NCBI RefSeq assembly: GCF_024585165.1
Contig: NZ_CP029008.1
Coordinates: forward strand, 620,001 to 684,000
Direction: 5' to 3'
Source of the DNA: Bradyrhizobium sp. WBOS07
GTDB lineage: Bacteria > Pseudomonadota > Alphaproteobacteria > Rhizobiales > Xanthobacteraceae
DNA: 64,000 bases
The position numbers and the translations under genes are program-made. A model generated the notes under the pieces. That model ran no database searches and had not been told where the DNA came from. It was given only the letters and a program-made list of their open reading frames with translations. This document shows, piece by piece, positions 34,476 through 37,968 of this stretch. Positions within the stretch are counted from its first letter, which is position 1; each line of letters starts with the position of its first letter.

Positions 34476-34711
34476 ATTGCCCGCCGCGCGGCCCAACCGA
34501 ACAATCCGGCAATCGCCGGAACGAGAGACCCGGATCTCGGGGCTCGCGCTGGAGAGGCGCGTGCCCAAGCGCGCGGGGCCTGCCGGAGGGAACGAGGCGA
34601 TGAGCCGGACACCGATGGCAGAGCGAACCCAGAGGTTCGCAACATGCGGCGCGTCGACAGCGCCGCGATAGAATTTTTGTACGTACTACAGCCGATGCGC
34701 AAGCACCGGCC

Positions 34712-34836
34712 TGGCGGTGGTGAAGATGTCTGTTACTTCGTGGTAAAGGCGCGAAAGCGCCGAGCAGGTTCGAGCCCTGCGCGCCGAAAGGCGGTTCGCC
34801 CGCAAGGGCAGCAACAGCATCGATCGTTCCCCGCCA
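34712..34836 (+). ncRNA. Y-RNA-like gene, unit A (partial tRNA mimic)
   Basis: About 125 nt. Ends TGGCGG (34712-34717) and CCGCCA (34831-34836) pair to form the closing stem. Next to it is the Ro-side motif GTGGTGAAGA....CTGTTACTTCG shared by all three units. A GGCGC-GAAA-GCGCC hairpin, a T-arm-like hairpin GCAGG-TTCGAGC-CCTGC (34764-34780), a CGCC-GAAA-GGCG hairpin and GCCC-GCAA-GGGC follow. No D-arm-like part. Placed directly upstream of the Ro gene, as bacterial Y RNA genes are. Confidence 0.7.
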
Positions 34837-34844
34837 ATCCCATC

Positions 34845-35002
34845 ACGGTCCGTGGTGAAGATTTCTGTTACTTCGCCTGCAACGCGAGAGGTCGCGGGTT
34901 CGAATCCCGCCCGGTGTCCCATGCACCGGTAGCTCAGAGGATAGAGCGCTTTCCGGCGAGCTTCGCTCGTCGGGTCACAGCAATCGCCTGTTCCCGGATC
35001 GT
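34845..35002 (+). ncRNA. Y-RNA-like gene, unit B (tRNA mimic with T-arm before D-arm)
   Basis: About 158 nt. ACGGTCCG (34845-34852) pairs with CGGATCGT (34995-35002). Ro-side motif GTGGTGAAGA...CTGTTACTTCG, then T-arm GCGGG-TTCGAAT-CCCGC (34894-34910), acceptor-like strand CCGGTGT (34911-34917), a CCA-containing loop, partner strand GCACCGG (34923-34929), TA, and D-arm GCTC-AGAGGATA-GAGC (34932-34947). A stable GGCGAGC/GCTCGTC hairpin follows. This is a tRNA mimic lacking an anticodon arm. Confidence 0.8.
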
Positions 35003-35017
35003 GTCCCCCTAACCACC

Positions 35018-35152
35018 GCCGGTGGTGAAGAGCGCTGTTAATTCGGATCGCAATGTCGAAGGTTCGAATCCTTCCGGACGAAAGTCCGTAGCTCAGCGGT
35101 AGAGCATGTGACTTGCCCGCAAGGGCAGTACAGCCTCGCCTGTTCCCCGGCA
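35018..35152 (+). ncRNA. Y-RNA-like gene, unit C (tRNA mimic, tetraloop-capped acceptor)
   Basis: About 135 nt. GCCGG (35018-35022) pairs with CCGGC (35148-35152). Ro-side motif GTGGTGAAGA....CTGTTAATTCG, T-arm GAAGG-TTCGAAT-CCTTC (35058-35074), acceptor-like CGGAC-GAAA-GTCCG (35075-35088), TA, D-arm GCTC-AGCGGTA-GAGC (35091-35105), then GCCC-GCAA-GGGC. It ends about 40 nt before the Ro protein ATG, so it may share its transcript. Confidence 0.8.
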
Positions 35153-35190
35153 CCCGTTTCCATCCCCCATCAACTCAAGAGGAGGCCATC

Positions 35191-36516
35191 ATGGTCAGGC
35201 TCAACAAGATCGGTCGCGCCTTCACGCGAGAGGGCGCGCGCGCGGTGCGCTTCACGCCCGAGATGGAGCTGAAGCGCGCGCTGATGAACTGCCTCCTGTG
35301 GGAGGACCAGTTCTACGAGGACGGCGTCGCGATCGCCGATCGCATCAAGGCGCTCGTGCCCAAGGTCGCGCCCGCCAAGGTCGCGCAGCTCGCGATCGAG
35401 GCACGCGAGGTGATGAAGCTGCGGCACGCACCGCTGCTGGTCATCCGCGAGATGGCGCGGAACGAGAAGCACCGCGCCCTCGTCGCGGACACGCTTCACA
35501 AGGTGATCCAGCGCCCCGAGGAGATGACGGAGCTGCTCGCGATCTACTGGGCGGATGCGCTGGGCCCTCAGCAGCAGCGCAAGCGTCAGCCGGTTTCGGC
35601 ACAGGTCAAGAAGGGCCTTGCCCACGCGCTGACCAAGTTCGACGCCTATCAGCTTGCCAAGTGGGACCGCGACGGCGCGGTGCGGATCAGGGACGTGCTG
35701 TTCCTGGTCCACGCCAAGCCTAGGGATGCCGAGCAGGAGAAGGTGTGGAAGCAGCTCGTCGACGGCGAGCTCGCTTCTCCCGACACCTGGGAGGTTTCGC
35801 TCTCGGCCGGCAAGAGCAAGCGCGAGACCTTCGAGCGGCTGATCGCCGAGCGCAAACTCGGCGGCCTGGCGCTGCTGCGCAATCTGCGGCTGATGCAGAA
35901 CGCGCAGGTCCCGCGCGAGACCATCGCAGGCGCGATCGAGGCGATGCGGACGGATCGCATCCTGCCCTATCGCTTCATCACGGCGGCGCGCTATGCGCCG
36001 GACCTCGAGCCCGAGCTCGAGGCTGCGATGCTCAAGTCGGTCAAGGACCATGTGCGGCTTCCGGGCCGGACGCGGCTCCTGATCGACGTGTCGGGCTCGA
36101 TGTTCGCAACCCTCTCCGCGCAGTCGGAAATGACGCGTGCGGAGGCGGCTTGCGGCCTTGCCATCCTCGCGCGCGAGATCTGCGACGAGGTCGAGATCTT
36201 CACCTTCAGCAATGAGGTGGTGAAGGTCCCGCCCCGCCGCGGCTTCGCGCTCAGGGACGCGATCATCAACTCGCAGCCGCATGGCGGAACCTATCTCGGC
36301 AAGGCCGTGACGGAGATCGACCGCAAGGGCGATCGCCTCATCGTCTTCACCGACGAGCAGAGCCACGACCAGGTGCCCGAGCCCAAGGCACGCGGCACCA
36401 TGGTGAACGTGGCCTCGTATCAGCACGGTGTCGGTCACGGCGCCTGGACCCGCGTCAACGGCTTCTCCGAGGCCGTGGTCGCGTGGATCGCGGCGTCGGA
36501 AACGGCGTTGAACTGA
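35191..36516 (+). CDS. rsr: TROVE domain protein, bacterial Ro60 (Rsr)
   Basis: 441 aa. Residues 1 to about 285 form the TROVE HEAT-repeat ring (LKRALMNCLLWEDQFYEDGV; LLRNLRLMQN). Residues 294-441 form a vWFA domain with a MIDAS motif (Asp299-x-Ser301-x-Ser303 in LLIDVSGSM) and FTDEQS. Ro60 binds Y RNAs and misfolded RNA; bacterial Rsr partners PNPase through Y RNA in Deinococcus. GAGGAGG precedes the ATG; an earlier in-frame ATG (35113) lies inside Y-RNA unit C. It is flanked by three Y-RNA-like genes and rtcB. Confidence 0.95.
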   Translation: MVRLNKIGRAFTREGARAVRFTPEMELKRALMNCLLWEDQFYEDGVAIADRIKALVPKVAPAKVAQLAIEAREVMKLRHAPLLVIREMARNEKHRALVADTLHKVIQRPEEMTELLAIYWADALGPQQQRKRQPVSAQVKKGLAHALTKFDAYQLAKWDRDGAVRIRDVLFLVHAKPRDAEQEKVWKQLVDGELASPDTWEVSLSAGKSKRETFERLIAERKLGGLALLRNLRLMQNAQVPRETIAGAIEAMRTDRILPYRFITAARYAPDLEPELEAAMLKSVKDHVRLPGRTRLLIDVSGSMFATLSAQSEMTRAEAACGLAILAREICDEVEIFTFSNEVVKVPPRRGFALRDAIINSQPHGGTYLGKAVTEIDRKGDRLIVFTDEQSHDQVPEPKARGTMVNVASYQHGVGHGAWTRVNGFSEAVVAWIAASETALN

Positions 36517-36527
36517 TGCGCAACGAC

Positions 36528-36562
36528 AGCGGCCCCGGACGCAAGACGCGCCCGGGGCCTTG
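36528..36562 (+). promoter_or_regulatory. Strong GC hairpin between rsr and rtcB
   Basis: GGCCCCGG and CCCGGGGCC form an 8-9 bp stem; only a weak T-run follows (TTGCGAAATTCTT). It may protect or partly terminate the rsr mRNA, setting the rsr/rtcB ratio. Confidence 0.5.
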
Positions 36563-36627
36563 CGAAATTCTTAAATGATCCACCCGGTCCGGTTAGGGTG
36601 CGGGTGGAATGACAAGGACCTACGACT

Positions 36628-37968
36628 ATGCGACGACCCGATCCCTACATGGAACGCGCCCGCGAACTCTGCCTCGCCGCCGGCGTCGATCCCGACTCGC
36701 GTGTCGGCGAAGGACGCGGCCAGCCGGCTTGGTGCCTGTACAAGGACGCCGCCCGCAAGGAGCATCTGGCCCGCGAGGCCAATGCAACCGCGAGCTCGAT
36801 CGCCGAGTTCCGGATGCAGGACGCCCGCTTCCAGAATGCGCCGCTGAAGGTGTTCGGCCCGCACGAGGACGCGACGATCGCGCAGATGCGCAACTGCATG
36901 GCGGTCGGCAACGTCGTCTCCGGCGTGATCTGCGCCGACGGCCATCTCGGCTATGCGCAGCCGGTCGGCGGCGTCATCGCCTATGAGAAGCAGATCAGCA
37001 TCTCCGGCGTCGGCTTCGACATCGGTTGCGGCAACATGGCGGCCCGGCTCGACACGCGCTTCGACGACATCGCAAGCCGCGTGCCCACGATCATTCGCGA
37101 CGTCGCCAGGACGATTTCGTTCGGCGTCGGCCGCGCCAACGCCGAGCGGGCCGAGCACGACCTGTTCGACGACGGCGATGCCTGGCGCGAGAGCGACATG
37201 GAGTCCTACCGCAACAAGGCGGTGAGCCAGCTCGGCACGGTCGGCTCGGGCAACCATTATGTCGACCTCATGCGCGACGAGGACGGTTTCGTCTGGATCG
37301 GCGTCCACTTCGGCAGCCGCGGTCTCGGACACACCTCCGCGACGCGCTACCTCAAGGCCGCCGGCGGCAAGGACGGCATGAACGTCCCGCCCGCCGTGGT
37401 CGACGAGGACAGCGAGCTCGGCCGCCGCTACATCGCGGCGATGCAGCTCGCCGGGCGTTATGCCTATGCGGGCCGCGAGTGGGTCGTCGAGCGCGTCCGC
37501 CAGATCATCGGCGGCAGCGTCACCGAGAGCGTGCACAACCACCACAACTATGCCTGGCGTGAGACCCACGCGGGCCGCGATCTGTGGGTGGTGCGCAAGG
37601 GCGCGACGCCGGCGTTTCCCGGCCAGAAGGGATTCGTCGGCGGCTCGATGGGCGACGACGCCGTCATCCTCGAAGGCGTCGACAGCCCGGAAGCCAAGGC
37701 CTCGCTCTACTCGACCGTGCATGGCGCCGGCCGCCTGTTCGGACGACGGGAGGCGAAGCGGCGCTTCTCGCGTGAACAGATGGACCGGTGGCTCAACGAG
37801 CGCGGCGTCACCCTGATCGGTGCCGACCTCGACGAGAGCCCGATGGCCTATCGCCGCCTGCCCGACGTGCTGGCGCAGCACGCCGGCACGGTGAAGGTGC
37901 TGCACACCTTACGGCCGTTCGCCGTCGCCATGGCCGGCGAAGGCGAATTCGATCCGTGGAAGGACTGA
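36628..37968 (+). CDS. rtcB: RNA ligase RtcB
   Basis: 446 aa. GTP-dependent RNA ligase joining 2',3'-cyclic phosphate or 3'-phosphate to 5'-OH ends. Metal and GMP sites are intact: Asp104/His106 (ADGHLGY), Cys134 (FDIGCGN), Asn209-His210 (GSGNH), His227, the HNHHN cluster about 303-306 and the guanylated His365 (VHGAGR). It lies 111 bp after rsr on the same strand. In Salmonella rsr, Y RNAs and rtcBA form an RNA-repair operon under RtcR; here no rtcA or rtcR is seen. Confidence 0.96.
   Translation: MRRPDPYMERARELCLAAGVDPDSRVGEGRGQPAWCLYKDAARKEHLAREANATASSIAEFRMQDARFQNAPLKVFGPHEDATIAQMRNCMAVGNVVSGVICADGHLGYAQPVGGVIAYEKQISISGVGFDIGCGNMAARLDTRFDDIASRVPTIIRDVARTISFGVGRANAERAEHDLFDDGDAWRESDMESYRNKAVSQLGTVGSGNHYVDLMRDEDGFVWIGVHFGSRGLGHTSATRYLKAAGGKDGMNVPPAVVDEDSELGRRYIAAMQLAGRYAYAGREWVVERVRQIIGGSVTESVHNHHNYAWRETHAGRDLWVVRKGATPAFPGQKGFVGGSMGDDAVILEGVDSPEAKASLYSTVHGAGRLFGRREAKRRFSREQMDRWLNERGVTLIGADLDESPMAYRRLPDVLAQHAGTVKVLHTLRPFAVAMAGEGEFDPWKD

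Follow-up and report, generated by a model that had tools for sequence, protein, structure and literature searches.

A Bradyrhizobium Ro60-RtcB locus with tandem Y RNA-like units, one bearing a candidate anticodon-type arm

We analyzed a window of 64,000 nucleotides from Bradyrhizobium sp. WBOS07 (NZ_CP029008.1, positions 620,001 to 684,000; coordinates below count from the first letter of the window), in which three tandem Ro-handle RNA units (Y1, Y2, and Y3) precede a TROVE/Ro60 gene and an intact rtcB gene (Table 1). A first-pass annotation made from the sequence alone had proposed a Ro60/Y RNA/RtcB locus with three Y RNAs; TROVE, RtcB, YrlA, and motif evidence bears this out, and the window almost certainly holds a Ro60/Y RNA locus. 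That annotation was silent on an anticodon-type arm in Y2, on the differing tRNA permutations among the units, and on phage copies. Such arms are very probably real, and in related loci their frame is held while the central triplet changes.

A Ro60 locus with three tandem handle units

Table 1. Features of the candidate Ro60/Y RNA locus, in window coordinates
Feature	Position	Strand	Basis
Putative Y RNA unit 1 (Y1)	34712..34836	+	sequence; handle profile; fold vs shuffles
Putative Y RNA unit 2 (Y2)	34845..35002	+	sequence; Rfam; pattern; RNAalifold
Y2 candidate anticodon-type arm TTCGC-CTGCAAC-GCGAG	34872..34888	+	pattern; RNAalifold (inner four pairs)
Y2 variable loop, 5 nt, AGGTC	34889-34893	+	directly before T arm
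Y2 T arm GCGGG-TTCGAAT-CCCGC	34894..34910	+	pattern; RNAalifold
Y2 acceptor stem CCGGTGT-[C-CCA-T]-GCACCGG	34911..34929	+	pattern; RNAalifold
Y2 D arm GCTC...GAGC	34932..34947	+	pattern; RNAalifold
Putative Y RNA unit 3 (Y3)	35018..35151	+	sequence; YrlA match; pattern; fold vs shuffles
Ro60/TROVE protein, 441 aa, vWA-like domain	35191..36516	+	Pfam; profile vs PDB
RtcB RNA ligase, 446 aa	36628..37968	+	family score; motif alignment

The three units share the 5' motif GTGGTGAAGA...CTGTTA[C/A]TTCG and a 3' GTTCCC, and each closes with complementary ends, as the first-pass annotation had described: TGGCGG/CCGCCA in Y1 (34712-34717/34831-34836), ACGGTCCG/CGGATCGT in Y2 (34845-34852/34995-35002), and GCCGG/CCGGC in Y3 (35018-35022/35147-35151). 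With at most 1 mismatch, the 5' pattern matched the single 6.7-Mb contig of the organism's own genome at three sites, all in the array; since it is confined to the array at this threshold, the three-unit arrangement is more than chance. At 3 mismatches, five more matches appeared outside the array, compared with 6 for the reversed pattern.

Beyond the shared handle, the units differ in build. Y1 carries an extra GAAA hairpin, a T-arm-like hairpin (GCAGGTTCGAGCCCTGC), a short acceptor-like GCGCC-GAAA-GGCG, and a GCAA hairpin, with no D arm by pattern. In Y2, a permuted tRNA module follows the handle: first an anticodon-type arm, then the variable loop, the T arm, a 7-bp acceptor with CCCA, and the D arm; the unit also has an additional hairpin. 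The acceptor of Y2 runs from the 3' strand through the discriminator, CCA, and one T to the 5' strand. Y3 has a T arm (35058-35074), a 5-bp acceptor (CGGAC-GAAA-GTCCG), a D arm, and a GCAA hairpin, making it a YrlA-like permuted tRNA module. The combination of T arm, closed acceptor, and D arm thus fits Y2 and Y3 by pattern and does not fit Y1. A search with the Rfam YrlA model (RF02553), a check that the first-pass annotation had suggested, matched Y2 (40.0 bits) and Y3 (36.1 bits), both below the gathering score of 69, and gave no match for Y1. Folding against shuffled sequences favored Y1 (z -3.03, 1/200 equally good, 34709-34840) and Y3 (z -2.84, 1/200), with the T-arm letters of Y3 paired otherwise in its minimum-energy fold, and the part of Y2 without the closing stem barely beat its shuffles (z -1.48, 17/200). 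ARAGORN called a tRNA-Phe(aaa) at 34711-34788, which overlaps Y1 and which we took as a likely false call caused by the Y RNA.

Both proteins were recognizable. The Ro60 protein scored 50.5 bits for the TROVE domain (Pfam cut-off 23) and 25.4 bits for vWA_Ro60, slightly below the cut-off of 27.7, and its profile matched PDB entries for a TROVE protein (9l5y, E = 2.5e-42), RO60 (9nen, 7.8e-8; 1yvp, 9.8e-6), and RSR (2nvo, 1.6e-4). RtcB had a family score of 229 bits, and the Cys of DIGCGN and the His residues of GSGNH, HFGSRGLGH, and STVHGAGR, which we take to be catalytic, aligned with those of a solved RtcB (4dwr). The genome encodes one TROVE protein and one RtcB. Neither the RtcA nor the RtcR family had a match in it, in line with the first-pass claim that rtcA and rtcR are missing, and an E. 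coli control was positive for both.

The Ro handle and array size in related loci

To place the array among its relatives, we scanned genome contigs for relatives of the Ro60 protein and kept the best 80 of the 104 loci found; this set may lack some records closest to the window's genome. Adding the window gave 81 loci. A handle profile of two blocks (24-nt 5' and 12-nt 3'), iteratively trained on the 81 loci themselves, identified 287 units within 1.5 kb upstream of Ro60, another 14 in the same orientation but farther from the gene, and none on the reverse strand.

Most handle pairs covary and some are invariant, as judged from the 255 of the 287 units that scored >=40, with the other 32 set aside. 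In the closing stem, pairs -1, -2, 0, and -3 form in 254, 248, 251, and 240 of these units (shuffled means 205, 125, 167, and 201). The closing stems thus do covary, contrary to the lack of covariation that the first-pass annotation had named as a refutation. Pairs -4 and -5 form in 181 and 134 units (92 and 77 in shuffles), and pair -6 shows no excess (91 vs 83). Within the handle, pairs 11/-2 (247 vs 127 shuffled) and 12/-3 (164 vs 98) exceeded expectation, pairs 14/-4 and 16/-6 did not, 7/3 is mostly A-C, and inner pairs such as 3/9 and 9/0 are nearly invariant and so give no test of pairing. The array RNAs are predicted to bind Ro60 through this handle.

Arrays held 0 units in 1 locus, 1 in 6, 2 in 3, 3 in 17, 4 in 47, 5 in 6, and 6 in 1, although some contigs stop early and some units longer than 200 nt look like two fused. 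The first-pass annotation had called three an unusually large set. Three is not unusual, because 54/81 loci have at least four units within 1.5 kb and near relatives mostly have one more: four units are present in 40 of the 51 Bradyrhizobium-type loci (a grouping that takes in a few more broadly named metagenome bins), three in 10, and one in 1. The distal unit of four-unit relatives (~170 nt in most, shorter in some) is absent from the window, presumably through loss. A non-tRNA stretch (like CGTACCGTGGA ... GTGACGCGGG) recurs in the distal unit of several relatives (L062:2890-3064, L074, L038, L048, and L070), and in some of these it adjoins a T-arm-like hairpin.

A class-wide search with the 5' pattern (<=1 mismatch) matched 65/289 genomes, mostly at lone scattered sites, and among the matches listed only the own genome and one other (G004) had clusters of at least three. 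TROVE was found in 9/299 Pseudomonadota genomes; of the other eight, searched ~1.5 kb to each side of the partial match, handle units were present solely in one of the same genus (L126, four units).

Permuted tRNA modules and anticodon-type arms

By pattern, 132 of the 287 units contain a T arm, acceptor, and D arm, 56 have the first two of these, 8 have just the T arm, and 91 have none, this last class including units with atypical T loops. To examine the acceptor independently, we left it free in the search and located only the T and D arms, whose own pairing is built into the pattern and is therefore no test. Of 96 distinct cores, 64 had space for 7 pairs, and in these each of the 7 columns pairs in 59-64 units, most with several pair types. 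Acceptor strands were perfect over 5 pairs in 119/123 cases inside a unit, compared with 18/108 between units of one array; acceptors thus pair inside units and far less between them, so the permuted reading is right. The alternative register, tandem tRNA genes with handles as introns, was rejected on the same comparison. It had been prompted by an Rfam tRNA match across two units of L062 (44.9 bits).

Many units are, by sequence, circularly permuted tRNA mimics with differing permutation points. In class I, which includes the Rfam YrlA consensus and Y3, the handle lies at the anticodon stem. In class II, which includes Y2, it lies between the D stem and the anticodon stem and leaves the anticodon arm intact. 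In class III, seen in relatives, it lies in the D loop and a small loop closes the anticodon arm; strict detection found this form in 7/287 units and in 0/1435 shuffled ones. A loose, unvalidated rule of thumb divided 50 Bradyrhizobium-type units at position 2 into 16 of class III, 19 of the Y1 type (window included), 8 minimal, and 7 other. Minimal units consist of the handle and two small hairpins, with no T, acceptor, or D arms. In 6 of the 8, the loop of the first hairpin is 7 nt long and contains U33 and R37; the remaining two have U33 with C37. Separately, unit 2 of L058, whose variable arm is long and whose D arm is of the Leu type, resembles a class II tRNA.

The completeness of some modules raises the possibility that they are circularly permuted tRNA genes, from which the handle would be excised and the module re-joined, perhaps by RtcB, into a real tRNA with a CCA end. 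NCCA directly follows a perfect 7-bp acceptor in 36/76 units (30 Bradyrhizobium type, 6 elsewhere), Y2 itself has the cloverleaf parts with CCCA, and ARAGORN called a tRNA in 69/80 re-ordered modules. However, with a shuffled anticodon segment ARAGORN still called a mean of 61/80; the test lacks discrimination and was not used as evidence. Moreover, CCA, D arm, or acceptor is absent from many units, and one body with many anticodons would presumably be mischarged. We consider this explanation very improbable.

We next turned to the anticodon-type arm of Y2-like units, using tRNA position numbering. The Y2 loop has 7 nt, CU[GCA]AC, with U33 at 34878, the triplet at 34879-34881, and A37 at 34882; the outermost stem pair is U-G. 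When the best hairpin directly following the handle was taken across the loci (the first-hairpin scan), 80 of 282 hairpins had a 7-nt loop (22.3 in shuffles), and U33 with R37 was present in 52 (1.95 in shuffles). A second scan, anchored on the T stem, took as input 223/287 units (the class with T arm, acceptor, and D arm and the class with none), of which those without a T stem in range were dropped; among the 146 remaining, a 7-nt loop was found in 62 (7.9 in the control) and U33 with R37 in 56 (0.9), the rest having other loop lengths or no hairpin (25). A rule demanding U33 and R37 gave 95 units with 35 distinct loops, a list that holds doubtful entries such as window Y1. These counts take in many orthologues and are not independent.

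For a defined comparison, we assembled 46 class II units from Bradyrhizobium-type loci that fit one pattern, which constrains the variable loop, T loop, and D arm in part and places no constraint on positions 31-43 or on the acceptor stem and loop. The unit is last but one of its array in 42/46 and last in L048, L049, L050, and L052, whose orthology is assumed. RNAalifold on 30 of the 46 orthologues recovered the handle, anticodon-type hairpin, T arm, acceptor, and D arm unaided; in this set the pair beside the loop is CG in 10, AU in 10, and UA in 10, and the other three stem pairs are invariant. Over the whole class II structure, 97.1% of cells are paired (90.4% shuffled) and both sides have changed in 94 cells (31.5 shuffled); further pair types number 40, compared with 37.1, a value reached by 72/500 shuffles.

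Within this arm, the frame is kept and the triplet is not. U33 is present in 46/46 units and A37 in 45/46, and the 31-39 pair covaries in every case. Among 20 distinct sequences, entropy at positions 34, 35, and 36 was 1.19, 1.68, and 1.93 bits, compared with 0 at U33 and 0.29 at A37. Mapped onto a quick-search tree of these 46 Ro60 genes, in which 19/43 inner branches are weakly supported, the minimum number of changes was none at U33, one at A37, and 10, 17, and 15 at positions 34, 35, and 36, with four at position 32, nine at 38, ten each at 31 and 39, and 7-8 at each of four variable acceptor-loop positions. The triplets seen were GCA, ATC, GTG, GAT, GTT, GCT, GTC, CAT, CCC, and TGA.

Alternatively, the triplet might change through gene conversion, either among the units of an array or from tRNA genes, and have no function of its own. 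Arrays are repetitive, and as 7-mers 11/35 distinct loops equal a real tRNA loop of the own genome, a weak excess over shuffled triplets (mean 6.8; 39/2000 reach 11). As nine-mers, however, 4/36 equal own-genome tRNA loops against 2.8 expected, which is no excess, and the changes in the arm fall at 34-36, 38, the 31/39 pair, and 32 rather than in longer tracts. We regard gene conversion as improbable.

Repair genes, phage copies, and possible roles

Repair genes are common neighbors of these arrays, and their kind varies. The window's RtcB lineage lies near Ro60 in 31 of the 81 loci (~2.1 kb away in two), another RtcB lineage, 28-34% identical to the window's, in 9 (~2.5 kb off in L067 and upstream in L078), and Hen1 (PF12623) in 4 (L029, L048, L049, and L050), directly after Ro60 in the place of rtcB. 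Three kinds of repair enzyme thus stand beside the array in 44/81 loci, and RtcB is an optional rather than a set partner, of two lineages.

Copies also occur on mobile elements. At E = 1e-5, Ro60 relatives were present in 78/50,697 phage records and 20/72,556 plasmid records. Among the 9 phage loci and 1 plasmid locus inspected, handle units were visible in 8/10, some by eye, and none were found in L155 (two looks) or L158 (generic regex); the silence of L158 is weak because the same regex also missed L151 and L159, whose units were readable. In two pairs of phages, the triplet differs. The last units of Xanthomonas phages Olaya and 10KY502B have CT[GTT]AA and CT[TGT]AA in otherwise identical anticodon arms, with T stem and acceptor also differing, and one unit of Caulobacter phages CcrPW and CcrColossus has AT[TAG]GA and AT[CTG]GA, again with the remainder of the anticodon arm the same. 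Three GenBank tRNA annotations lie on Ro-handle units that look like Y RNAs with the corresponding anticodon: tRNA-Ser of phage Gurke (L150:3766-3840), tRNA-Gln of CcrColossus (L157:2128-2195), and tRNA-Thr of 10KY502B (L159:1759-1826). Some genes annotated as tRNAs in phages thus seem to be Y RNAs.

The sequence supports the locus, the handle, the permutations, the anticodon-type arm, the variability of its triplet, the gene neighbors, and the phage copies. As the best overall explanation we tentatively propose that the array encodes tRNA mimics tethered to Ro60, some of which expose an anticodon loop, and that these are linked to the repair of tRNA. The locus would yield a set of Ro60-bound noncoding RNAs, each built of a constant Ro handle (closing stem and conserved bulged helix) and an exchangeable effector module, with the handle taking the place of a single point in the tRNA chain, which is the anticodon stem in Y3, the junction of D and anticodon stems in Y2, and the D loop in some units of relatives. 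Y2-type RNAs would expose an anticodon loop with a constant frame (U33, A37, and the covarying 31-39 pair) and a free triplet. Tethered in this way, they may decoy or sense enzymes whose target, for binding or for cleavage, is the anticodon loop of tRNA, and the neighboring enzyme (RtcB, or the other RtcB or Hen1 in some relatives) would repair or protect cut tRNA and perhaps the bait too. The array RNAs are presumed to be expressed. A role as bait or sensor for anticodon-targeting enzymes, the mechanism that we prefer, is possible, though doubtful. A further step, in which the displayed loops are changeable per strain or phage and the triplets run an arms race with tRNA-cutting toxins and defense nucleases, backed by RtcB or Hen1, seems rather unlikely.

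Several observations weigh against this proposal. In the window, Y3 has no anticodon hairpin in the T-stem-anchored scan, and Y1 was outside that scan's input and, in the first-hairpin scan, had no loop but one carrying G32. Turnover is frequent in the acceptor loop as well (17 minimum changes, compared with 20 for the triplet), so rate alone is no proof of diversifying selection. The loops are not clearly copied from real tRNA loops, as the nine-mer comparison indicates. The triplet ATC (10 loci) is absent from the 45 distinct tRNA loops of the own genome, and the GCA loop is one letter off its Cys loop. A search of the own genome for AAA_13 (PF13166), the family of PrrC and RloC and the one anticodon-nuclease family covered, found nothing. 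No RtcB or Hen1 was present in the flank covered at 37/81 loci; in two of these, L044 and L081, the sequence stops within 1 kb, and in a few more the downstream flank is shorter than 3 kb. Finally, Salmonella YrlA, whose Rfam consensus lacks the arm, is reported to be a non-substrate of the anticodon nuclease (PMC7790460).

The loci lacking RtcB and Hen1 in this flank fit a more classical tethering, in which the modules mimic tRNA solely to bind a common partner (such as PNPase or a tRNA-modifying enzyme), the triplet is unread, and Ro60 serves RNA decay or quality control. The recurrence of T arm, acceptor, and D arm is consistent with this, as are the roles described for Rsr-Y RNA-PNPase and for YrlA as a DusA/TruB substrate (PMC8394870). 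An unread loop, however, would not hold U33 and A37 as these units do while 34-36 turn over, and minimal units retain the anticodon-type hairpin and shed the other arms. We think classical tethering is a real possibility, if a somewhat questionable one.

With respect to known systems, the units resemble YrlA in lying beside a Ro60 gene and in the permuted order in which T arm, closed acceptor, and D arm sit on a basal stem, closely for Y3 and partially for Y2. They differ in scoring below the gathering cut-off, in forming tandem arrays, in the missing D arm of Y1, in the separate anticodon-type hairpin of Y2-type units, which the Rfam consensus lacks, and in the D-loop-open and minimal forms of relatives. 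The Salmonella rsr-yrlBA-rtcBA operon likewise joins Ro60, Y RNAs, and RtcB (PMC7790460), but the window's genome has no RtcA or RtcR match, its Y RNAs form an array upstream of Ro60, and its Ro60 is of another subtype (NCBIfam Rsr 19.9 bits, cut-off 900). Of the Pnkp/Hen1 type of RNA repair, Hen1, the component searched for, is encoded in the four relatives noted above and not in the window. Jumbo-phage Ro/TROVE, described as an RNA repair platform with a tRNA-like partner, shares the tRNA-like RNA and the conflict over RNA; the consulted portion of that paper does not mention arrays, anticodon loops, or triplet turnover (PMC7824862).

Thus the kind of locus, Ro60-Y RNA-RtcB, is already known, and the array, the differing permutations, the anticodon-bearing Y RNAs, and the triplet turnover appear new. 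Among the open-access titles and abstract openings listed, none described arrays of Y RNAs that bear anticodon loops; as the main Y RNA papers lie outside this coverage, novelty is provisional. These arrays address an open question, the job of bacterial Ro60 and the reason for tRNA-like Y RNAs. Competitive inhibition of an anticodon nuclease by YrlA is one possibility raised in the Salmonella paper (PMC7790460), and because the RNAs hold an anticodon frame and swap the triplet, this idea becomes directly testable. The matching pattern in phages ties Ro60 to conflict over tRNA.

Two minor observations concern the surroundings of such arrays. Between an upstream terminator-like hairpin and the array, a GC-rich stretch of the window (34490-34660) is by eye conserved in L004 and L048; no Rfam family matched it, and it is possibly another RNA or a leader. 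On plasmid P2 of Deinococcus gobiensis (L156), a 57% identical Ro60 has one YrlA-like unit upstream and a BrnT/CopG toxin-antitoxin pair alongside.

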